Assembly (NCBI GenBank): GCA_016217545.1
Contig: JACRHT010000012.1
Location: forward strand, 1,054,001-1,118,000
Reading direction: 5' to 3'
Length of the DNA stretch: 64,000 nt
Source: Opitutia bacterium
Lineage (GTDB): Bacteria > Verrucomicrobiota > Verrucomicrobiia > Opitutales > Opitutaceae
Made by a program: the position numbers and the translations under genes. The notes beneath the pieces are model-generated. The model saw only the letters and a program-made list of their open reading frames with translations. It made no database searches and had not been told where the DNA came from. Positions 2,840-47,806 of the stretch are shown here, piece by piece (the first letter of the stretch is position 1; the number at the start of each line of letters is the position of its first letter).

Positions 2840-3325
2840 TTACTTGTCCTCGGCGACGCGCAGCTGCGGTGCGTCCTCATCCTCGTCGGCGGACGCGGGC
2901 AGGAGATCGCAAATCGAGCGGAGAATGCCGAGCAGCTCGGGGCTGCCCGCCACGCGCGTCAGCAAGCGGATGTCGGTTTCGTGCAGTCCGGCGCGCCGCA
3001 CCGTTTCCTCGAGCTTGGCGGCGGCCCGGCCGGTGGAGCGGCTGTAGGTGGCGATTTTCTGGCGGGTTTGGCCGAGGGCGGACGGCTCCGCGAGATCGAG
3101 TCCGCTGACCGCCTCGAGCCACAGCAGCGCCAGGCTGGCCATCTCCGTGGAATCGGAGGCGTAACCCATCTTGGTCGCGAGCCGGGCCAAGGTTTCGAAT
3201 CGCACTGGCCGGCCGGCTTCGACGTTCACGACCGTGTTCCGGTGGCAACGGGCCAGCCGGGCGAGCGTCTCGTGCGTCATGCCCTTCTGTTCCCGGAGCT
3301 GGCGGAAAAACAGCGTGTAGTGCAT
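2840..3325 (-). CDS. XRE-family helix-turn-helix transcriptional regulator
   Basis: A 161-residue protein. Residues 4-56 form a Cro/CI-type HTH (QLREQKGMTHETLARLARC, then NTVVNVEAG and LARLATKMGY). The roughly 100-residue C-terminal part is helical, with an acidic tail, and I do not recognise it. It ends 10 bp from the stop of the upstream hybrid kinase on the opposite strand, so the two are convergent. The start is the only good ATG before the HTH. The role is DNA binding; target genes are unknown. Confidence 0.8.
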   Translation of the reverse strand: MHYTLFFRQLREQKGMTHETLARLARCHRNTVVNVEAGRPVRFETLARLATKMGYASDSTEMASLALLWLEAVSGLDLAEPSALGQTRQKIATYSRSTGRAAAKLEETVRRAGLHETDIRLLTRVAGSPELLGILRSICDLLPASADEDEDAPQLRVAEDK

Positions 3326-5556: not shown

Positions 5557-5565
5557 GGAGCGAAG

Positions 5566-5586
5566 TAGAGCCGGTCTTCGACCGGC
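5566..5586 (+). repeat. REP hairpin, class 1 (GTAG foot), left flank of RAYT
   Basis: GTAGA followed by a perfect 7-bp stem GCCGGTC-TTC-GACCGGC. The GTAG tetranucleotide at the foot is the mark recognised by REP-associated tyrosine transposases in E. coli. It points toward the transposase gene that starts 6 bp further on. Confidence 0.8.
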
Positions 5587-6203: not shown

Positions 6204-6226
6204 GGCCGGTCGGAGACCGGCCCTAC
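6204..6226 (-). repeat. REP hairpin, class 1, right flank of RAYT (inverted)
   Basis: GGCCGGTC-GGA-GACCGGCC followed by CTAC, the reverse complement of a GTAG foot. It is the inverted partner of the copy at 5566-5586. It ends four bases before the stop codon of the downstream minus-strand gene. Confidence 0.8.
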
Positions 6227-15006: not shown

Positions 15007-16425
15007 TCAGTTCTTTTCGCCGGCGCGGAACTCGACCCACGGCTGGCTCGGGCGGCTCTTCAGCAGGCCGGTCATCCAGTCGTATTGCGGGTGAGCTTCG
15101 AGGAATTTGTCGGCGTCGAACGCGAGGCCGTCGGCCGAACCCCAGCGCGCGGCGAAGCGCATCTCCTTCACCATCGCGGCGTCGACGACCTTGGCGTCGC
15201 AGGTGCCGGCGGGTTTGAAGGGCTCGCGGTGCGGGTTGACGAATTGCGCGCCGAGATCGCCGCGGGCGTTGAGGCCGAGCGCGGCGGGGCGGTCGGCGGT
15301 GTTGAAGCAGGCGTCGACGCAGTCGGCTTCGAACTCCTTGGCCTTCGCGAGGTCGATCTGGCCGACGTTGGCTTTCATGAGCTGCTTCCAGCGCACGCGG
15401 CGCGCGACGGGCGAGAGGCGGATGTCGGTGTCGTGCATCTCGGTTTCGAGGCGGAGGATTTTCAGGTTCTCGGCGATGTTGGAGCCGACGAAGTAGCCGT
15501 CTTTCGTGCGCTCGAAGCCGATGTATTTGAGGCCGAGTTCGAGGCGGATGATCTCGTTGGTGTTGATGTCGCCGACGAGCCAGGAGTTGGCGTAGCCGCC
15601 GTTGTTGCCGCGCTTCATGATCTCGCACCATTCGTCGAGCGAGCCGGCGTCCTGCACGGCGCGGCGGAAGCGGATGAACTCCGGCACGCCTTTTTCGGTG
15701 AAGCCCTTGAAGCCGCCGATGGTGGTCTCGCAGCCGACGAGGCCGGCGTCGGTGACGAAGAAGTCCGTGCCGCTGTGAATCCAGCCGGCCTGCGTCTGCA
15801 TGAGGATGCGGTGGCCCTTCGCGGGAACGACGTCGAGGACGACGTTGTAGAGCGCGAGCGTGAAGTCGGACATGGTGTTGTGGCCGAGGACGATTTTGCC
15901 GTCCTTCGTCATCTTGCCGGTCGCGATGAAGGCGGAGCACATCTCCTTCGGCGCGGTGACGACCGTGGCGCTGCCGGAGAACTTGCTCGCGACTTCGGGC
16001 CACCAGTAGCCGGTGGTTTCGATCGAGGCGTTGTAGGCGAGGATGTCGTCGTAGGTGGTGGGCACGCCGGCGGCGTTCATGCCTTCGGCGATGCCTTCCA
16101 GCTCGGCGCGATTTTCGGCGTCGACGCCGGCGCCGATGAAGCCGTTGGTCTGCTCCTTGAGCCACGCCCAGTCGAAGCTGCTGTCGTGCTCCCATTGCGC
16201 GGCGGTGACGCGCATGGTTTCGGCGATCTCGCGCGCGAGCAGGTAGCCGTGCTGGAAGCCGCGAGCGCGCGGCTCGCCCTCGATGTGGAGGTAGATCCAC
16301 CCGGCCTTTTCGTGGCGTTGGGCGGAGGCGAGCCAGGTTTTTTGCTGCGCGGAAAGTTCGGTGGCGCGGGGAGCCGGCAAAGCCAGCGCGAGGGCCGCGA
16401 GCGTGGCGAGGAGGCGGGGTAACAT
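15007..16425 (-). CDS. phospholipase B-like / C45-type Ntn hydrolase, exported
   Basis: A 472-residue protein with a signal peptide (MLPRLLATLAALALALPAPRA, cleavage near 21). The sequence follows the phospholipase-B-domain (PLBD/lama ancestor) fold: an N-terminal part with EPRARGFQHGYLLA, then the probable autoprocessing site at the Cys of EMCSAFIATG, followed by KIVLGHNTMSDF and later TNSW-type and NPHREPF segments. These enzymes self-cleave to expose an N-terminal Cys nucleophile that attacks amide or ester bonds of lipids or peptides. Identification rests on the Cys context and overall motif order. The substrate is unknown. Confidence 0.82.
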   Translation of the reverse strand: MLPRLLATLAALALALPAPRATELSAQQKTWLASAQRHEKAGWIYLHIEGEPRARGFQHGYLLAREIAETMRVTAAQWEHDSSFDWAWLKEQTNGFIGAGVDAENRAELEGIAEGMNAAGVPTTYDDILAYNASIETTGYWWPEVASKFSGSATVVTAPKEMCSAFIATGKMTKDGKIVLGHNTMSDFTLALYNVVLDVVPAKGHRILMQTQAGWIHSGTDFFVTDAGLVGCETTIGGFKGFTEKGVPEFIRFRRAVQDAGSLDEWCEIMKRGNNGGYANSWLVGDINTNEIIRLELGLKYIGFERTKDGYFVGSNIAENLKILRLETEMHDTDIRLSPVARRVRWKQLMKANVGQIDLAKAKEFEADCVDACFNTADRPAALGLNARGDLGAQFVNPHREPFKPAGTCDAKVVDAAMVKEMRFAARWGSADGLAFDADKFLEAHPQYDWMTGLLKSRPSQPWVEFRAGEKN

Positions 16426-16644: not shown

Positions 16645-17007
16645 ATGGCTTGTATCGGACTTGTCGAAAGCGATCACGATTGCCGTCGTGCTTGCGCGGT
16701 CGTGCTCGAACACCTCGGGCACGAGGTGCACGCATTCGGATTGCTCGACGATGCGGTGCAGAGTCCGGTGGGACCATTCGAAGTTGTCGTGATCGCCCCG
16801 GGGTGGGAGGCCGCTCGCTGCGAAACGGAAATCTCGCGGATCCACCGTCGACTGGGTGAGACGGCGTTGGTCGTGCTTTCGGAATCGCACTATTTGGTCG
16901 ATCAGCCCAGTCGGTCGCCGCAGGTGCGGATCCTGCCGAAGCCGTTCAAGGTGCAGGCGCTGCGGGAAGCGTTGACCTCGCTGACGCAGTCAGCGTGCGC
17001 GAACTGA
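16645..17007 (+). CDS. degenerate single-domain receiver (pseudo response regulator)
   Basis: A 120-residue CheY-like protein. It has an N-terminal IGLVESDHDCRRACAVVLEH strand-helix and a C-terminal LPKPF with the conserved Lys. Where the phospho-acceptor Asp should be (FEVVVIAPGW), residue 51 is Ala, and the usual DD pair is E8-S9-D10. It is therefore unlikely to be phosphorylated in the normal way. The start follows an upstream CCTCTTCCCCTC stretch with no clear ribosome binding site; longer in-frame starts from 16534 exist but add Cys-rich, unlikely sequence. Its 3' end overlaps the bufC 3' end by 18 bp, tail to tail. Confidence 0.7.
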   Translation: MACIGLVESDHDCRRACAVVLEHLGHEVHAFGLLDDAVQSPVGPFEVVVIAPGWEAARCETEISRIHRRLGETALVVLSESHYLVDQPSRSPQVRILPKPFKVQALREALTSLTQSACAN

Positions 17008-18063
17008 CGGTTCGCCCCGGCAAAACCAACCGAGCTCCATCCAGCTGCGGAACCAGCTCTGCACCGTGGCGGCCCAATCTTCGCGCGGGCGCCGCGATTT
17101 CGGGATGCCGGCGGCGAGCGCGCGTTCAAGCGGCTGGCCGGCGCGGATGGCGGCGAGAATCTTGAAGGCGGCGGGCTCGAGGCGCTTGAAGTAGATTTTC
17201 CCGTGGTGACGGTGCACGGCGACGCGGCACGGTGCGCGGCGTGGGCGCTGGGCCTTGCTATCGGCGTGCACGCGTAGCGCGGTCGGCGCGTTCGAGGCGT
17301 CGCCGCGGAGGAGCGCCTCGCGCTTGCGGATGGCGATGAGGTAGTCGTCGACCGGATAGCGCAGCTCGAGCAGTTGCAGATAGGGCTGGAGCGAGAGGCG
17401 GAGTTTCGCGGGATCGGAGTCGAGCAGGTCGTCGACGGTGAACACGGGACGCGCGGCGCCGTCGTAGACTTCGACCTGCGCCCACTCGAAGCGCGCGATG
17501 TCTTCGCACAGCGCGGTGTGCGGCGCGGTCAGACGCGGCGTGCGGCGGATGAAGTCGGCGAGGCGCTGAGGCAGGTCGCGGAGCGTCCAGTATTTCGACG
17601 GGTGCTTCTGGAGGAACGCCTCGGCGAGGCGCATGAATTTCCGTTCGCCCAGCGCGGCGCGCAGGCCGGGGCAGTCCTCGTGCAGGCTGTCGAGCACGCG
17701 GAACCAATACATGCGGTTGTAGATTTCGAGACGCTCGAAGGCGGTGAGGCGGTCGTTCGGCTTGGCGATGGCGGCGACGGCGGACTTCGTGGCGCGGCCG
17801 TCGCGCAGGCGCGGCGCGGTGCGGTTGGCGCGTGTGAGCGGGTTCATCACGACGGCGAGCGTGGCGCGCTGGAGCGCGCGCAGCTCGGCGCGCGAGCGGG
17901 CGGAGAGGGTGGGACCGGTCTCCGACCGGCCTGCCTTGGTCGGCGGGCTCGCGGCGGGCTTTGAGCGGTCTGGCGCGGATGCGGCGAGAGGCGCGTGGCC
18001 GGCGAGATGCGGGGGTTTTTTCGGCCGGTCGGAGACCGGCCCTACTTTGGGCGCACGGGGCAT
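16990..18063 (-). CDS. bufC: BufC/HvfC-type partner protein (DUF2063 N-terminal domain)
   Basis: A 357-residue protein. From about residue 58 it reads as a BufC/HvfC family member (DUF2063): LRALQRATLAVVMNPL, RLTAFERLEIYNRMYWFRVLDSLHEDCPGL, then a second domain with FEWAQVEVYDGAARPVF and a C-terminal EPAAFKILAAIRAGQPLERAL winged-helix-like part. BufC-type proteins bind the MNIO enzyme and the precursor peptide and are needed for cysteine modification. The first about 55 residues are not conserved family sequence: they are encoded by two inverted REP hairpins (VGPVSDRP and GRSETGPT). The ATG lies 3 bp after the bufB stop, so the two are co-transcribed. An alternative Met at codon 73 would cut into the domain. 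Confidence 0.85.
   Translation of the reverse strand: MPRAPKVGPVSDRPKKPPHLAGHAPLAASAPDRSKPAASPPTKAGRSETGPTLSARSRAELRALQRATLAVVMNPLTRANRTAPRLRDGRATKSAVAAIAKPNDRLTAFERLEIYNRMYWFRVLDSLHEDCPGLRAALGERKFMRLAEAFLQKHPSKYWTLRDLPQRLADFIRRTPRLTAPHTALCEDIARFEWAQVEVYDGAARPVFTVDDLLDSDPAKLRLSLQPYLQLLELRYPVDDYLIAIRKREALLRGDASNAPTALRVHADSKAQRPRRAPCRVAVHRHHGKIYFKRLEPAAFKILAAIRAGQPLERALAAGIPKSRRPREDWAATVQSWFRSWMELGWFCRGEPSVRAR
17908..17930 (+). repeat. REP hairpin, class 1, inside the 5' part of bufC
   Basis: GGTGGGA followed by CCGGTC-TCC-GACCGG. It matches the class 1 REPs flanking the RAYT except that the foot is GTGG rather than GTAG. Read on the minus strand it encodes GRSETGPT of BufC. It pairs with the inverted copy at 18023-18045. 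Confidence 0.75.
18023..18045 (-). repeat. REP hairpin, class 1, at the start of bufC (inverted)
   Basis: GGCCGGTC-GGA-GACCGGCC followed by CTAC, identical in its core to the right-flank RAYT REP at 6204-6226. It encodes VGPVSDRP near the N-terminus of BufC. Confidence 0.8.
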
Positions 18064-18066
18064 GAG

Positions 18067-18951
18067 TTACTTTCGCGGCGCGCCCAGCGGTCGCGCCCTA
18101 CCTCTGCTTTGCGCGGCGCGGGCTTCGGCGATGTAGGCGTTGGCCTTCAGGGCTTCGTCGTGCACTTCCTGGAAGGAGGGAATCTTGTCGTCCCACTCGA
18201 GCAGCGTGGCGGTGACGCCGCAGAGTTTGGTGGCGTGCGCATACATTTTCCACACCGGGTCGAGCACGGGATGGTCGTGGGTATCGAGGATGTATTTCTC
18301 GAACTTCGTGTGACCGGCGACGTGCATCTGCGCGACGCGGTGGTGCGGGATGTTGTTCAGGTAATCGTAGGGGTCGAAGCTGTGGTTCTTCGACGAGACG
18401 TAGATGTTGTTTACGTCGAGCAGGATTCCGCAATCGGCGCGCTCGACGACCTCGGTGAGGAATTCCCACTCGGTCATCTCGGAGGCGTGGAACTCGGTGT
18501 AGGAGCTGACGTTTTCGACGGCGACGGGCAGTTCGAGGTAGTCGCGCGTGTAGCGGATGTTGGCGGCGACGTGCTTGGCGGCGGCGATGGTGTAGGGCAT
18601 CGGCAGCAGATCGTGCGAGACGGTGCCGTCGACGCTGCCCCAGCAGAGGTGATCGGAAATCCAGGGCGTCTTCGTGCGCTTGGTGAGCGCCTTGAGTTTC
18701 TTCAGGTGGTCGCGATTCGGGAAGTCGGTCGAGCCGAGGTAGAGCGACACGCCGTGCTGGACGACTTTGTATTGGGCGAGGATGCGATCGAGGACCTCGA
18801 GCGGGCGGCCGCCGTCGACCATGAACGTCTCGGAGATGATCTCGAACCAGTCGACGGTCGGTTTCTCCGAGAGGATGTGGTCGTAGTGCGGGACGCGCAG
18901 GCCGATGCCGATGCCGTAGTCGGTGTAGCCGTTGAATGGGTTGGCGGGCAT
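18067..18951 (-). CDS. bufB: BufB/HvfB-type multinuclear non-heme iron oxygenase (MNIO, DUF692)
   Basis: A 294-residue DUF692 TIM-barrel enzyme. The start at MPANPFNGYTDYG is where the family begins; a longer in-frame GTG form would translate hairpin sequence. Metal-ligand and family motifs are all present: GIGLRVPHYDHIL, FEIISETFM, HGVSLYLGSTD, ISDHLCWG, VENVSSY, ILLDVNNIYVSS, MHVAGH and DTHDHPV. In characterised relatives (MbnB, TglH, HvfB, BufB) two or three iron ions oxidise peptide cysteines to oxazolone/thioamide or thiooxazole groups that bind metal, mostly copper. It lies between the Cys-rich precursor and bufC. The last residues (GRARPLGAPRK) are encoded by a REP hairpin and look like a recent extension. 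Confidence 0.92.
   Translation of the reverse strand: MPANPFNGYTDYGIGIGLRVPHYDHILSEKPTVDWFEIISETFMVDGGRPLEVLDRILAQYKVVQHGVSLYLGSTDFPNRDHLKKLKALTKRTKTPWISDHLCWGSVDGTVSHDLLPMPYTIAAAKHVAANIRYTRDYLELPVAVENVSSYTEFHASEMTEWEFLTEVVERADCGILLDVNNIYVSSKNHSFDPYDYLNNIPHHRVAQMHVAGHTKFEKYILDTHDHPVLDPVWKMYAHATKLCGVTATLLEWDDKIPSFQEVHDEALKANAYIAEARAAQSRGRARPLGAPRK
18077..18102 (-). repeat. REP hairpin, class 2, in the 3' end of bufB
   Basis: GGCGCG, loop CCCAGCGGT, CGCGCC, then CTACC, so the reverse strand starts GGTAG. The same layout, with stem GGCGGG/CCCGCC and the same nine-base loop, occurs at 45559-45584. Confidence 0.75.
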
Positions 18952-19026
18952 GGAGAGCGGGCTTGGCGCTGCGCCCGGAGCGTGGCGCGGGGGCAGGGCG
19001 AAGCAAACCTTCCGAAGAAACAGAGA

Positions 19027-19044
19027 CCGACGCGTGGGCGTCGG
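19027..19044 (-). other. hairpin in the bufA-bufB spacer
   Basis: Seven-base stem CCGACGC/GCGTCGG with loop GTGG, followed on the minus strand by TCTCTGTTTCTT. It could attenuate read-through into bufB or protect a processed mRNA end. It is secondary to the better terminator at 19065-19091. Confidence 0.35.
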
Positions 19045-19064
19045 CCTCCGTGAACACACACACT

Positions 19065-19091
19065 AAAAAAGCCGGATCAGATCCACCCGGC
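19065..19091 (-). terminator. rho-independent terminator between bufferin precursor and bufB
   Basis: On the minus strand, 10 bp after the precursor stop codon, GCCGG...CCGGC forms a bulged stem closed by a GGAT/ATCC inner part, directly followed by TTTTTT. The arrangement implies that most transcripts carry only the precursor and fewer read through to bufB and bufC. Confidence 0.7.
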
Positions 19092-19101
19092 GCGGCGCGG
19101 C

Positions 19102-19404
19102 TTACTTGGCCGGCTCGGACTTCTTGTCGTCCTTCTTATCGTCCTTGGCCTTGCAGCCATCCTTACCCTTGCAGCCGTCCTTACCTTTGCAGCCGTCCTT
19201 GCCTTTGCAGGACTCCTTGCCCTTGCAGCCGTCTTTACCCTTACAGCCGTCCTTGCCCTTGCAGGAGTCTTTGCCCTTTTCGTCGCCGACGATCTGGGTG
19301 CCGGCGTTGACGTTGGTGGAAGCGGAGGCCTTCAGGGCGAGGGCTCCGGCGTAGAGGCCGGCGATGGCGGCGGCGGCGATGATGGTGCGGGTGGATTTGT
19401 TCAT
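19102..19404 (-). CDS. bufferin-type Cys-rich RiPP metallophore precursor (seven CKGKDG-like hexapeptides)
   Basis: A 100-residue secreted peptide. Residues 7-29 are a hydrophobic signal (IIAAAAIAGLYAGALAL, likely cut after ASA). After a short linker, residues 46-87 are seven perfect hexads of the form (D/E)(G/S)CKGK, with cysteines at 48, 54, 60, 66, 72, 78 and 84, each exactly six residues apart. The tail is Lys/Asp-rich. The next genes are an MNIO enzyme and a BufC partner, which in characterised clusters convert such cysteines into metal-binding heterocycles; products are exported to the periplasm and buffer copper. The CKG pattern resembles the low-complexity BufA2-like bufferins more than the four-Cys DUF2282 type. 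Reading frames that begin further upstream (to 19758) are not credible. Confidence 0.85.
   Translation of the reverse strand: MNKSTRTIIAAAAIAGLYAGALALKASASTNVNAGTQIVGDEKGKDSCKGKDGCKGKDGCKGKESCKGKDGCKGKDGCKGKDGCKAKDDKKDDKKSEPAK
19150..19275 (-). repeat. 18-bp tandem repeat coding for the hexapeptides
   Basis: Seven 18-bp units encode the (D/E)(G/S)CKGK hexads. Units differ mainly at third positions (for example TTACCCTTGCAGCCGTCC versus TTGCCTTTGCAGGACTCC on the plus strand), so the protein repeat is kept although the DNA has diverged. It is too short and in-frame to be a CRISPR array. Confidence 0.85.
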
Positions 19405-19452: not shown

Positions 19453-19645
19453 AGCGTTCGGGAAAGACGTGGAGTATGGCGGGTGGGAGCTGGGAGGTCG
19501 GAAGATATTCCCGAAAATTACGGCGGGGGTCCGGGAATGGACGCATCGAGGCCCCGCGCGGGGCGCAGGCCGAGGGCTTTGCGACCAAGCGCTGGATTGG
19601 GGCGAGGAGCTTCGCGGGTGTGGCGACGTGGCCGGTGGGGCCGGG

Positions 19646-21325
19646 TCAACGGCTGGCGCTCTGTGCCACGAAAGGCGGTGCGGGGGCGGGCCCGATGAGC
19701 GGGAGCACGACGATGAACCGTGTGCCTTCGCCAAGCTGGCTTTCGCAGCGGACTTCACCTCCGAGCGCGGCGGTCACCTGTTTCACGATCCACAGACCGA
19801 TGCCGATGCTCTTTTCGCCGCCGGTGGGGCGGGCGGGGCCGCGGGCGAATTTCCGGAAGAGCAGCTCGATATCGCGCGGCGCGAGGCCGGGGCCTTGGTC
19901 GGCGACCGCGATCGTCGCCTTGCCGGCTTCGGCCTGAAGGGTGAGGTGGATGATGCGGCCGGGCGGCGAGTATTTGACGGCGTTGGAAAGGAGGTTGTCG
20001 ACGACCTGCCGGAGCGCGCCTTCGTCGGTCACGACGAAGACGGGCTGTGAGGGCGGAAGGTAGCGAAGCTGGAGTGCCTTGGCGCCCGCCGTTTCGAGGA
20101 AGGCGTCGCGGGCCTGCGCGAGGGTGCGGGTGAGATCGATCGAGGTGAAGCGCAGGCGTCGGTGGCCGGACTCGATGACGTCGGCGTCCATGAGGTCGTC
20201 GATGAGGCGGGTCATGTTGGCGGCGTTGAAGCGCAGGCCGTCGACCACGGAGGCTTGTTCGCGCGAGAGGCCGCCGACGTGCAGGAGGTTCGCGCCCATG
20301 ACGAAGGAGGCGAGCGGATTGCGGAGATCGTGCGCGAGCATGCGCATGAGTTCCGATTTCTCCTCGCTGGCGGCGGCGAGGCGGTCGCGCACCTCTTCGA
20401 GTTGTTGCTGAATGCGGCGGCGTTCCGCGAGTTCGCGGGCGAGGCGGCGGCGCTGGAGGAAGAACAGCAGGGCCAGGGCGGTGAGGAACGCGGCCCACGC
20501 GAAGGCCGCGCGGAAGGCCATGAGCCACCAGCGGTCCTGGGCGTAGTCGACGGAGAGCCAGCGGTCGCGGATGCGGCGGTGCTCTGCGGGCGTGATCGAG
20601 GCGAGGGCCTTGTCGATGATCGAGGAGAGCAGGGGGTGGCGTCGGGTGGTGGCGAGGTAGACGTCGGCGTTTTCGTCGTAGATGACGCCGATGTTCACGT
20701 TGGAAAGTCCGTCCGCCTTGATGGCGTGCATGGCGACGAGGGCATCGACCATGGCGGCGTCGACCTGTCCGCGGGCCACGGCGCGGATGGCATCGCGCAT
20801 GTTGTCGAAGCCGACGATCTGCGCTCCGGGGGCGCGGGCGATCGGCGGGCTGGAGCGCGACATGCCGACGCGCAAGCCGTCGAGCTGGCGCATGTCGACG
20901 AGCACGGGCGAGTGCACGCGGGTGACGATGACGTCGGGGGAAAAGAGGAACGGCTGGCCGAAGAGCAGGCTGCGCTCGCGCGCGGACGTGCGGCCGATCC
21001 CCGCCACGATGTCGAGACGACCGTCCTCGGCGCGGGTGAAGATATCGGACCACACGCGATCGGCGGTGTGCTCGAAGCGCAGCCCGGTGCGCTCGGCGAT
21101 GAGCGCGAGGTAGTCGACGTTCAAGCCGGAGGCTTCGCCGCGGCTGTCGCGGACAAAATACGGCGCGGCGCCGTCAAGATGGCCGACGCGGACGACGGGG
21201 TATTGGGCGATCCACGCCTGCTCGGCGGGGGAGAGGAGGATGCCGGCGGATGGCGCGGCCAAGCACGGCGTCGAAGCGATGAGACAGAACAGGAGTGCGC
21301 ACAGGCGCTCGAACGGAGTTTTCAC
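19646..21325 (-). CDS. sensor histidine kinase with periplasmic solute-binding (SBP_bac_3) domain
   Basis: About 559 residues from a GTG start (MKTPFERLCALLFCLIASTP signal peptide). A periplasmic amino-acid-binding-protein-like domain follows (VRVGHLDGAAPYFVRD, LDIVAGIGRTSARERSLLF, then ATTRRHPLLSSIIDKALASI). Then come one membrane helix (FRAAFAWAAFLTALALLFFL), a coiled coil, a HisKA motif LAHDLRNPLASF and an HATPase domain (ADQGPGLAP, SIGIGLWIVKQV). It ends without a receiver and no response regulator gene is next to it. It is the gene directly upstream of the bufferin precursor on the same strand, 241 bp away. The sensed ligand is unknown. Confidence 0.9.
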   Translation of the reverse strand: MKTPFERLCALLFCLIASTPCLAAPSAGILLSPAEQAWIAQYPVVRVGHLDGAAPYFVRDSRGEASGLNVDYLALIAERTGLRFEHTADRVWSDIFTRAEDGRLDIVAGIGRTSARERSLLFGQPFLFSPDVIVTRVHSPVLVDMRQLDGLRVGMSRSSPPIARAPGAQIVGFDNMRDAIRAVARGQVDAAMVDALVAMHAIKADGLSNVNIGVIYDENADVYLATTRRHPLLSSIIDKALASITPAEHRRIRDRWLSVDYAQDRWWLMAFRAAFAWAAFLTALALLFFLQRRRLARELAERRRIQQQLEEVRDRLAAASEEKSELMRMLAHDLRNPLASFVMGANLLHVGGLSREQASVVDGLRFNAANMTRLIDDLMDADVIESGHRRLRFTSIDLTRTLAQARDAFLETAGAKALQLRYLPPSQPVFVVTDEGALRQVVDNLLSNAVKYSPPGRIIHLTLQAEAGKATIAVADQGPGLAPRDIELLFRKFARGPARPTGGEKSIGIGLWIVKQVTAALGGEVRCESQLGEGTRFIVVLPLIGPAPAPPFVAQSASR

Positions 21326-21518
21326 CGGTCGGGAAGGGGGAGGAGAGGGTGACCGAGGGGGCGAAAGAAGGCGACTGGTTCTCCGCGGTGACGCGTGCAG
21401 CGTCGACTTGGGCGGAAGGAGACCCACTGGGCCGCGGACAAGAGCGTGCCTTCTCAGTAGAGGATACGCTTTTCGGCGGTCAGGAGTGACAGGAAAAACG
21501 CGGCTGGGCCCGCCGCGG

Positions 21519-46777: not shown

Positions 46778-47320
46778 ATGAATCCGCTCCTGCCGCCCGC
46801 GTTCACGCTGCGCCAATGGCGTGACGACGATCTCGATGCGTTCGCCGAGATGAACGCGGACCCGGAGTTGATGCGGCACATGCCGGCGGCGCTGACGCGC
46901 GAGGAGTCCGCGGCGACGCTGGCGCGCGTGCGCGATGGCATCGCGGCGCGCGGCTGGGGCTTGTGGGCGGTGGAGGTCGACGGCGAGCTGGCCGGTTGGA
47001 CGGGGTTGAACCCGCCAGCGTGGACGGCGCACTTCACGCCCTGCGTGGAAGTGGGCTGGCGCTTGCGGCGCAAATTCTGGGGGCGCGGCCTCGCGACCGC
47101 CGCGGCGCGCGAGGCGGTGCGCTACGGTTTCGAGACGTTGCAGCTCGGCGAGATCGTGTCGTTCACCGTGCTCGCGAACGAGCGTTCGTGGCGCGTGATG
47201 GAGCGGCTCGGTTTCACGCGCGACCTCGCGGGCGACTTCGATCATCCGCGCTTGCCGGAGGGGCATCCGTTGCGCCGGCACATCCTTTATCGGAAGAAAA
47301 ACCCGGCGCGCCGGGAATAA
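46778..47320 (+). CDS. GNAT-family N-acetyltransferase (RimJ/RimL-like)
   Basis: 180 residues: N-terminal LRQWRDDDLDAFAEMNADPE, the acetyl-CoA-binding loop GRGLATAAAREAVRYGFE and the C-terminal NERSWRVMERLGFTRD. It belongs to the RimJ/RimL branch, which acetylates protein N-termini or small amines; the substrate is unknown. The start is taken at MNPLLPPAFTLRQW. It is followed after 27 bp by the DoxX gene. Confidence 0.88.
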   Translation: MNPLLPPAFTLRQWRDDDLDAFAEMNADPELMRHMPAALTREESAATLARVRDGIAARGWGLWAVEVDGELAGWTGLNPPAWTAHFTPCVEVGWRLRRKFWGRGLATAAAREAVRYGFETLQLGEIVSFTVLANERSWRVMERLGFTRDLAGDFDHPRLPEGHPLRRHILYRKKNPARRE

Positions 47321-47347
47321 GGCGGCGCGGTCCGGCTCCCATGAGCC

Positions 47348-47806
47348 ATGAATCCGCGCACGCTCCTCGACGCTTTCGACCGCTTTGCTTCCCACTTGCA
47401 GGCCCCGCTGCTGTTCTTGCTCCGCGCTTACTGGGGCGTGTCGTTCGCGCAGACGGGCTGGGGCAAGCTGATGCACCTCGAGCGCACGACCGAATTTTTC
47501 GCTTCGCTCAACCTCCCTGCGCCGAAGCTCAACGCGATCGCGGCCGGGTCGACGGAGATGCTCGGTGGCGTGTTGCTGGCGCTGGGGTTGTTTGCGCGGC
47601 CGGCGGCGGTGCCGCTGGCGTTCACGATGATCGTGGCGTATCTGACGGCTGATCGCGAGGCGGTGCAGGCGATCTTCAGCGACACCGACAAGTTCACGGG
47701 CGCGGCGCCGTTCCTCTTTTTGCTCGTCTCGCTGCTCGTGCTCGCGTTCGGGCCGGGCAAGTGGTCGCTGGATCATGTTCGCGCTCGCAAGGGTGGGGCG
47801 AGGTGA
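47348..47806 (+). CDS. DoxX-family membrane protein
   Basis: 152 residues with four probable membrane helices and the family marks LLRAYWGVSFAQTGWGKLMH and TEMLGGVLLALGLFARPAAV. DoxX proteins are found in oxidative-stress and quinone-related membrane contexts; the exact role is open. It follows the GNAT gene closely on the same strand. Confidence 0.88.
   Translation: MNPRTLLDAFDRFASHLQAPLLFLLRAYWGVSFAQTGWGKLMHLERTTEFFASLNLPAPKLNAIAAGSTEMLGGVLLALGLFARPAAVPLAFTMIVAYLTADREAVQAIFSDTDKFTGAAPFLFLLVSLLVLAFGPGKWSLDHVRARKGGAR

Follow-up and report, generated by a model that had tools for sequence, protein, structure and literature searches.

A bufferin-type operon of an Opitutia bacterium with a tandem cysteine-hexad precursor and a candidate ECF sigma factor regulator

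Cys-Lys precursors make up one of the three published groups of captophorins, and Buf2 belongs to that kind (PMC13097082). In the part of PMC12452194 available to us, Buf2 precursors carry 6 or 12 conserved cysteines, hundreds of small precursors with 1-18 cysteines are left unclassified, and sigma/anti-sigma genes are reported in the biosynthetic gene clusters of Buf1, not of Buf2. In Caulobacter, the accessible portions of PMC8224329 and PMC3511200 describe an extracytoplasmic function (ECF) sigma factor, SigF, which together with NrsF, a protein with six transmembrane segments and two conserved periplasmic cysteines, controls two DUF692 clusters and DoxX; SigF further governs a periplasmic methionine-sulfoxide reductase system, and a mutant in sigF shows sensitivity to copper. 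Here we describe a cluster of this type from an Opitutia bacterium of the family Opitutaceae, located in a 64,000-nucleotide stretch of DNA (contig JACRHT010000012.1, positions 1,054,001 to 1,118,000), which is referred to as the window. From its sequence, we consider it quite probable that the cluster is an operon of the bufferin (captophorin) kind, with a Buf2-type precursor that has been rebuilt as a tandem array and with transcription driven by an ECF sigma factor. The class of system and the Cys-Lys order are already known, while the design of the precursor and its regulator look like new variants.

The operon, its precursor and its maturation enzymes

The cluster consists of three genes and two further elements:
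19102..19404, minus strand: bufA-like precursor of 100 aa, with a Sec-type signal peptide (by eye), seven hexads and a Lys/Asp-rich tail
19140..19278, minus strand: hexad array in the DNA, period 18 (Tandem Repeats Finder, 7.7 copies, score 173)
19071..19091, minus strand: hairpin with a T run, resembling an intrinsic terminator, in the gap between bufA and bufB
18067..18951, minus strand: bufB, an MNIO enzyme (PF05114; NF050167)
16990..18063, minus strand: bufC, the DUF2063 partner with a RiPP recognition element, RRE (PF09836)

All three genes lie on the minus strand in the order A-B-C and together fill positions 16990-19404, with gaps of 150 nt between bufA and bufB and only 3 nt between bufB and bufC. 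From its N to its C terminus, the BufA peptide consists of MNKSTRTIIAAAAIAGLYAGALALKASAST, a short linker, the seven hexads and the Lys/Asp tail, the signal peptide being a by-eye reading of a basic start, a hydrophobic stretch and an AxA motif. The original prediction had described a secreted 100-residue peptide with seven cysteines placed six residues apart. We could confirm the length and the cysteines, as all six Cys-Cys spacings are exactly 6; it had also assigned the formula (D/E)(G/S)CKGK to all seven hexads, which holds for six of them, the final hexad being DGCKAK. When the hexads of the window are compared with each other, the pairwise proportions of synonymous and nonsynonymous differences are 0.557 (pS) and 0.104 (pN), respectively, for pairs that are not independent. 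Since the hexads thus differ mainly at synonymous sites, the repeat is maintained at the level of the protein. The hairpin between bufA and bufB was detected in 43 of 53 comparable loci from the family (defined below, window included) and in 1.4% of shuffled sequences. The shuffles used for the hairpin and for the bufA, sigma/doxX and msrB motif tests keep base composition, while those used for the palindrome and window-wide tests keep dinucleotides. No second precursor was found in the genome, as a search with the BufA2 profile NF050166 (E up to 1) retrieved the window gene and nothing else; likewise, no second MNIO or DUF2063 gene was found, with a single match for each, both in the window cluster.

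The assignment of the maturation enzymes comes from both profiles and folds. BufB passes the NCBIfam bufferin-maturase model NF050167 (338.9 bits, cut-off 310), scores 350.2 bits against PF05114, and its AlphaFold model, which like that of BufC was built with alignments from relatives, matches 3BWW (E 8.4e-21), TglH and MbnB. Among 48 aligned BufB rows, with 37 invariant columns and a mean column identity of 75%, the residues H66, H101, E146, D179, N182, H210, D223, H225, E252 and D254 are invariant in every row. These follow the pattern of the iron ligands and general base of VcMbnB as named in the accessible part of PMC8888699, with H66 assigned by pattern since the pairwise alignment with MbnB begins at residue 93. 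BufC passes PF09836 (58.2 bits, cut-off 27.2), and its AlphaFold model matches the folds of TglI (8hci, E 1.9e-06) and NGO1945 (3dee, E 6.7e-06); no solved structure is related to it by sequence at E up to 1, and both were found by fold only. Thus, the MNIO enzyme and DUF2063 partner that the original prediction had placed after the precursor are both borne out, and its assignment to the bufferin type of RiPP (ribosomally synthesized and post-translationally modified peptide) was right. Judging from these sequence comparisons, the cluster is of the bufferin/captophorin type, with a chemistry and a metal that we infer. We are unsure of the true start of bufC, because its ~56 initial codons precede the stretch common to most relatives and contain two REP-like (repetitive extragenic palindromic) palindromes, which may either be protein-coding or be the sign of a wrong start. 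The palindrome GGTCGGAGACCGGCCCTAC occurs in four copies in the window (5565-5583, 6208-6226, 17909-17927 and 18027-18045; ≤3 mismatches), compared with 0.04 expected.

The order of residues around each cysteine bears upon the likely chemistry. The original prediction had called the G-C-K order unlike that of HvfA. This stands insofar as the EGKCG pentads and the Arg-Arg and Phe residues of that group are missing here, but the order is not new, having been published as Cys-Lys (PMC13097082). In MNIO enzymes of the Cys-Lys kind, an Asp replaces Phe250 of FonB and the second Arg is lost (PMC13097082); the window BufB has both features, with EWDD (D254/D255) and R19-V20. Across 72 MNIO sequences, the specificity position is occupied by Asp in 64, Ala in 4, Gly in 3 and Asn in 1, and the second Arg is present in none. 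Three loci from the same class of bacteria, L096-L098, have Gly at this position and Cys-Pro precursors beside BufBC, which contain DDCP[GD]K-type repeats within a chain rich in Lys, Glu and Asp. It is conceivable, if somewhat unlikely, that the operon is as described and employs another chemistry or ligand, such that modification is confined to some of the cysteines, that it yields something other than 5-thiooxazole, or that the physiological metal is a soft metal other than copper, such as gold, silver or mercury. In the literature covered, the product structures assigned concern Lys-Cys products (Fon, Hvf, Ngo) and DUF2282-type bufferin 1, the available part of PMC12452194 reports gold-induced bufferin operons and MerC fusions, and Caulobacter SigF responds to chromate and cadmium as well, according to the accessible part of PMC3511200. 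However, all of the characterized MNIO-PME1 cases install 5-thiooxazole and their products generally bind Cu (PMC13097082); by analogy, copper is the likeliest metal.

Promoter and candidate regulator

Three features of the window concern transcription of the cluster:
19484..19511, minus strand: ECF-type two-box promoter of bufA, GGAATA-N16-CTCCCA, with the -35 box 107 nt before the ATG
47314..47341, plus strand: second match to the promoter pattern, before doxX (window scan)
47348..47806, plus strand: doxX (PF07681, 80.1 bits, cut-off 23.6)

The promoter motif consists of two boxes, GGGAATAA and CTCYYA, and the spacer that separates GGAATAn from CTC is 15 or 16 nt long. Both boxes are found upstream of bufA in 45 of the 53 family loci (median distance to the start, 101 nt) and in 0.18% of shuffled sequences, and the -35 box alone is found in 49. 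In the entire 64-kb window, the pattern has just two matches, those before bufA and doxX (0.02 expected), and a scan of the region for sigma-70 promoters returned zero sites. The window DoxX resembles HvfX, scoring 64.8 bits against the HvfX family model NF050144, below its cut-off of 80. Of the 58 places in the family where BufB occurs, 45 have a doxX gene no more than 3 kb away in the same orientation; in the window, the gene is ~28 kb distant. In the window genome and its two nearest relatives (G040 and G096), doxX stands elsewhere in the genome and still carries the motif. Of the 200 family genomes sampled, 56 have BufB, 56 have this DoxX and 52 have both. The Fisher tests on BufB/DoxX, sigma and motif co-occurrence ignore kinship.

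Searching the window genome returned 56 matches to sigma region 4, and 50 of these loci, together with four DoxX loci, were scanned for the motif. P0005 is the sole sigma factor among the 50 with the motif just before its own start (34 nt). It is followed by an overlapping gene for a 244-aa membrane protein, P0006, which has one hydrophobic stretch (by eye) and weak matches to DUF3379 and generic anti-sigma models, all under their cut-offs. In homologues of P0006, all 34 aligned rows share C168, C182 and H191, with the region after the hydrophobic stretch otherwise variable. Homologues of P0005 (E ≤ 1e-25) occur in 115 of 200 genomes, including 50 of the 56 with BufB; in many of the genomes, not all candidates were scored in this search, so that the absence of the sigma factor is uncertain wherever it is mentioned below. 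Among the best 30 loci taken from 115 genomes for sigma, 56 for doxX and 155 for msrB, with starts extrapolated from the query, the motif precedes the sigma gene in 29 and doxX in 17. In six genomes (G004, G024, G034, G049, G058 and G066), the buf genes are accompanied by doxX with homologues of both the sigma and anti-sigma genes immediately after it, in the same orientation. A promoter model trained on 29 bufA promoters of other genera (R2) and searched against the 5.09-Mb genome gave five matches: doxX (15.5 bits), sigma (15.0), a site before msrB (13.7), bufA (12.6) and one further site at 11.6. An earlier model, R1, included the window genome's own sites, and R2 alone serves as evidence; weak matches to the R1/R2 models were also recorded at L214 and L215. 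The msrB site lies 87 nt before the gene of a secreted MsrB (TIGR00357, 194.9 bits). In genomes with the sigma factor, the motif precedes msrB in 14 of 18 loci, compared with 2 of 12 in those without (Fisher 0.002), and the bufA motif is missing from 3 of 5 loci in sigma-less genomes, compared with 5 of 48 in the remainder (Fisher 0.02).

An unlikely alternative is that the motif is read by a different sigma factor and that the P0005 pair is a parallel system. The genome has more region-4 matches than the loci scanned, and the bufA motif is present in G130 and G196, in which no P0005 homologue was found. On the other hand, P0005 is alone among the 50 loci in having the motif directly before its own start, the msrB motif tracks the presence of the sigma gene, and the sigma and anti-sigma genes are linked to the cluster in the six genomes listed above. 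A histidine kinase gene with a family-3 solute-binding sensor domain (19646-21427, minus strand) is located just upstream of bufA; it was considered as the regulator and set aside in favor of the ECF pair, which has the support of the promoter evidence. The original prediction had made no reference to the promoter, the hairpin after bufA, the relocated doxX or the sigma/anti-sigma pair. Because the available part of PMC12452194 reports sigma/anti-sigma genes for Buf1 only and not for Buf2, the linkage of an ECF pair to this cluster appears to be new, and no description of such an ECF/bufferin regulon was found in the literature searched, which covered few subscription papers.

Two other neighbors of the cluster should be mentioned. 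A phospholipase-B-like protein (15007-16425, minus strand; PF04916, 55.7 bits) is encoded downstream of bufC. A 2-hydroxyacid-dehydrogenase-like gene lies upstream of bufA in many family loci between L006 and L057 (by eye); it was rejected as an operon member, as it does not adjoin the window cluster (by eye).

Relatives and origin of the array

The original prediction had proposed a search of Opitutaceae genomes for the conserved trio and its hexad count. Among the 200 sampled family genomes, BufB was found in 56, at 58 places, and within the genus in 7 of 10 genomes, one of them with a broken gene. In the latter (G189, locus L059), the bufAB genes look decayed, with a partial BufB that has an internal stop and no readable precursor. 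Excluding L033, L051 and L059 (no precursor by script) as well as L056 and L058 (not comparable), 53 comparable precursor loci were obtained, window included. A six-Cys core, C.G.N.C.G.G.C...C.G.N.C.G.G.C, is present in 38 of the 53 precursors and is not present in that of the window; this pattern was derived from the family's own precursors and was slightly widened between the first and later counts. When cysteines within the first 27 residues are ignored, 20 precursors have the core only, 18 have the core plus extra cysteines, 5 are pure arrays and 10 are otherwise core-less. The pure C-x5-C arrays are those of the window (7 Cys), of L003, L004 and L005 from the genus and of L043 from another genus (9 each), while L062, from a separate pattern scan, has 5 by eye; in L007 and L010, also from the genus, the hexads are broken up. 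Thus, the seven hexads of the original prediction are correct for the window, but the number is not fixed, as close pure-array relatives have 5 or 9 and the count varies among loci. Its suggestion that such arrays may be little studied in this phylum is probably right, as no paper containing both ‘MNIO’ and ‘Verrucomicrobi*’ was found within the same literature coverage; in its accessible part, PMC8692599 mentions DUF692 and the phylum, and its DUF692 clusters come from gammaproteobacterial contigs.

Several observations connect the array to the Buf2 precursor. In the family members that keep the core, its cysteines are spaced 6,6,7,6,6, so that the hexad retains the ancestral period. Moreover, 46 of 57 aligned precursors match the BufA2 profile at E ≤ 0.01, and the core is present in 4 of 13 out-of-family loci of the same class placed in the BufB tree (labels by eye). 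This was a quick tree of 72 rows with only Shimodaira-Hasegawa-like approximate likelihood-ratio (SH-aLRT) support and many weak forks; L057 and L059 (fragments), L058 and L099 (distant MNIO sequences) and L060, L063 and L067 (duplicates) were left out, and L056, L065, L068 and L091 have long end branches. Mapped onto the tree, the core/no-core label requires six changes, compared with an average of 22.5 after shuffling. The window falls within a starred set of 15 rows, 5 of which are core+hexad and 10 core-less. Because this clade mixes core+hexad with core-less forms, the sequences suggest that the array most likely arose from a Buf2 precursor that gained hexads N-terminally and then lost its core; the count of changes is approximate, and the direction is deduced from the core being so widespread. 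Elsewhere in the class, in four small genomes of 2.2-2.5 Mb (L085, L090, L092 and L095), the neighbor of BufBC is a minimal precursor with MSCKGKQSCKGKKK.

Using exact matching, we also scanned the GTDB species collection, which may omit the window's own genome, for DNA that encodes four consecutive hexads of the type CK[G/A]K[D/E]x. Nine stretches matched, of which L060, L063 and L067 were already in the family set and two, L068 and L065, are distant. In L068, from a Deltaproteobacterium, the order is doxX-bufA-bufB-bufC and the precursor has seven cysteines, all six apart, while L065 has 19 cysteines with 13 of 18 spacings equal to 6. Since their BufB proteins are only 52% (L068) and 49% (L065) identical to that of the window, it is unlikely that the cluster as a whole was transferred recently, and the arrays of L068 and L065 are likely to be convergent, as far as sequence comparison can tell.

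It is very unlikely that the hexad peptide remains unmodified and serves as a metallothionein-like sink of cysteine thiolates in the periplasm, with BufBC as ancestral baggage. The recurrence of arrays in distant lineages would agree with this, as would L064, in which a hexad peptide is found on a 4.4-kb contig without an MNIO gene. The latter is also the single, partial example of a homologous locus lacking the MNIO gene, a finding that the original prediction had named as one that would count against it. The L064 peptide (2933-3280, plus strand) is a signal-peptide-like protein with CKGKD hexads beside a pseudouridine-synthase-like open reading frame (by eye). However, BufB adjoins the array in 7 of the 9 stretches, the contig of L066 stops right after its array, and BufB is highly conserved with an invariant ligand pattern, as described above. 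A collagen-like fiber or adhesin, in which the Gly-X-Y periodicity would reflect homology, is most improbable and was rejected on comparison with the relatives: the precursor scores 25.1 bits against Pfam Collagen, just below the cut-off of 27.2, and residues 41-90 hold 12 Gly in one triplet register in the window and 15 each in L003 and L005, yet this register collapses to 2 in L007 and 8 in L043, none of the seven peptides tested has a Pro in these residues, and it is the spacing of Cys rather than Gly that is conserved beside the MNIO gene, such that the matches look compositional.

Proposed mechanism and comparison with known systems

From homology and sequence, we infer the modification, metal, export and regulation of the system as follows. 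Periplasmic stress by a soft metal, most likely copper, would be sensed by the membrane anti-sigma factor through Cys168, Cys182 and His191, releasing the sigma factor, which would then transcribe bufABC, doxX, msrB and its own gene. Read-through of the hairpin after bufA would give the precursor in excess over the enzymes. The RRE of BufC would present the precursor to BufB, where Asp255 may hold the Lys that follows each Cys, and BufB would carry out the four-electron oxidation of each Cys to 5-thiooxazole, lowering the mass by 4 Da for every Cys and by up to 28 Da in total. The peptide would be exported via Sec, with each hexad acting as a nearly independent ligand such that capacity scales with the number of hexads, while DoxX and the secreted MsrB may limit or repair oxidative damage.

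A number of results weigh against this reading. Regarding the enzymes and the precursor, BufC does not pass the HvfC equivalog NF050145 (56.5 bits, cut-off 142), the window BufA does not pass the BufA2 profile (19 bits, cut-off 60), and no hairpin was found between bufA and bufB by the same script in L003, the closest relative. The Asp rule is loose as well, since L065 and L086 have Ala at the specificity position together with CK-motif precursors. CK-type motifs that were offered to FonBC, an enzyme of the Lys-Cys kind, were left unprocessed (PMC13097082), so activity of BufBC on the hexads should not be assumed from FonB. The system is also patchy, as 3 of 10 genomes of the genus have no BufB match in addition to the one with a broken gene. 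Concerning regulation, P0005 homologues are present in 65 of the 144 genomes without BufB and none was found in 6 of the 56 with it, the motif occurs in sigma-less genomes both before msrB (2 of 12 loci) and before bufA (2 of 5), and the matches of the R2 model have weak E-values (between 0.12 and 1.0 for the four regulon sites, with 150 of 786 first-look candidates scored). In Caulobacter, msrA homologues were unchanged, according to the accessible parts of PMC3511200 and PMC8224329.

A broader proposal is about as likely as not: that this family independently assembled a SigF-like copper-buffering regulon (bufferin, DoxX and periplasmic methionine-sulfoxide repair) under a different, Cys-Cys-His-sensing ECF pair, that the open-ended array of the window lineage is a dial for metal capacity turned by 18-bp slippage, and that the array arose again beside BufBC in at least one Deltaproteobacterium. 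Such a regulon would suggest convergence upon a single parts list for the stress response, and the promoter evidence ties both doxX and the secreted MsrB to the bufferin response. The analysis also supplies a specific candidate regulator and promoter for bufferins in Verrucomicrobiota, while the natural series of core, core plus hexads and hexads only (5 to 9 Cys) offers a system in which to study how much metal is bound, how processive the MNIO enzyme is and whether a fold is needed.

Among the described systems, Buf2 (Buf_6/12Cys, including Caulobacter BufA2B2C2) is similar in its bufABC order, its signal peptide (putative in the window precursor), its Cys-Lys motifs and its DUF2063-RRE partner, as well as in an MNIO enzyme with Asp after the catalytic Asp and in the cysteine spacing of core-keeping family members. 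It differs in that the window precursor has a pure array of variable length in place of the six-Cys core and in that an ECF pair is linked to the cluster here. Fontiphorin, oxazolin and gonophorin likewise have precursors built of repeats (fontiphorin also with seven sites), an MNIO enzyme with DUF2063 and a presumed 5-thiooxazole copper ligand. Unlike the hexad CKGK of the window, the pentad of these EGKCG captophorins has KCG, and their MNIO enzymes have Arg-Arg and Phe where that of the window has Arg-Val and Asp; the array here looks Buf2-derived. With respect to regulation, the accessible part of PMC6180224 describes Sinorhizobium RpoE7-EcfR7, in which DUF692/DUF2063 genes are similarly under ECF control; the promoter sequence is different, and the likeness lies in these targets. 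Insofar as the available sources describe it, Caulobacter SigF-NrsF also combines an ECF sigma factor and a Cys-bearing membrane anti-sigma factor with DUF692/DUF2063 bufferin genes, DoxX and methionine-sulfoxide reductase. The differences are that P0006 is not a six-transmembrane NrsF (DUF1109), having one hydrophobic stretch and a C/C/H set of residues, that the promoter here is of the two-box type given above, and that the reductase is a secreted MsrB rather than MsrPQ.

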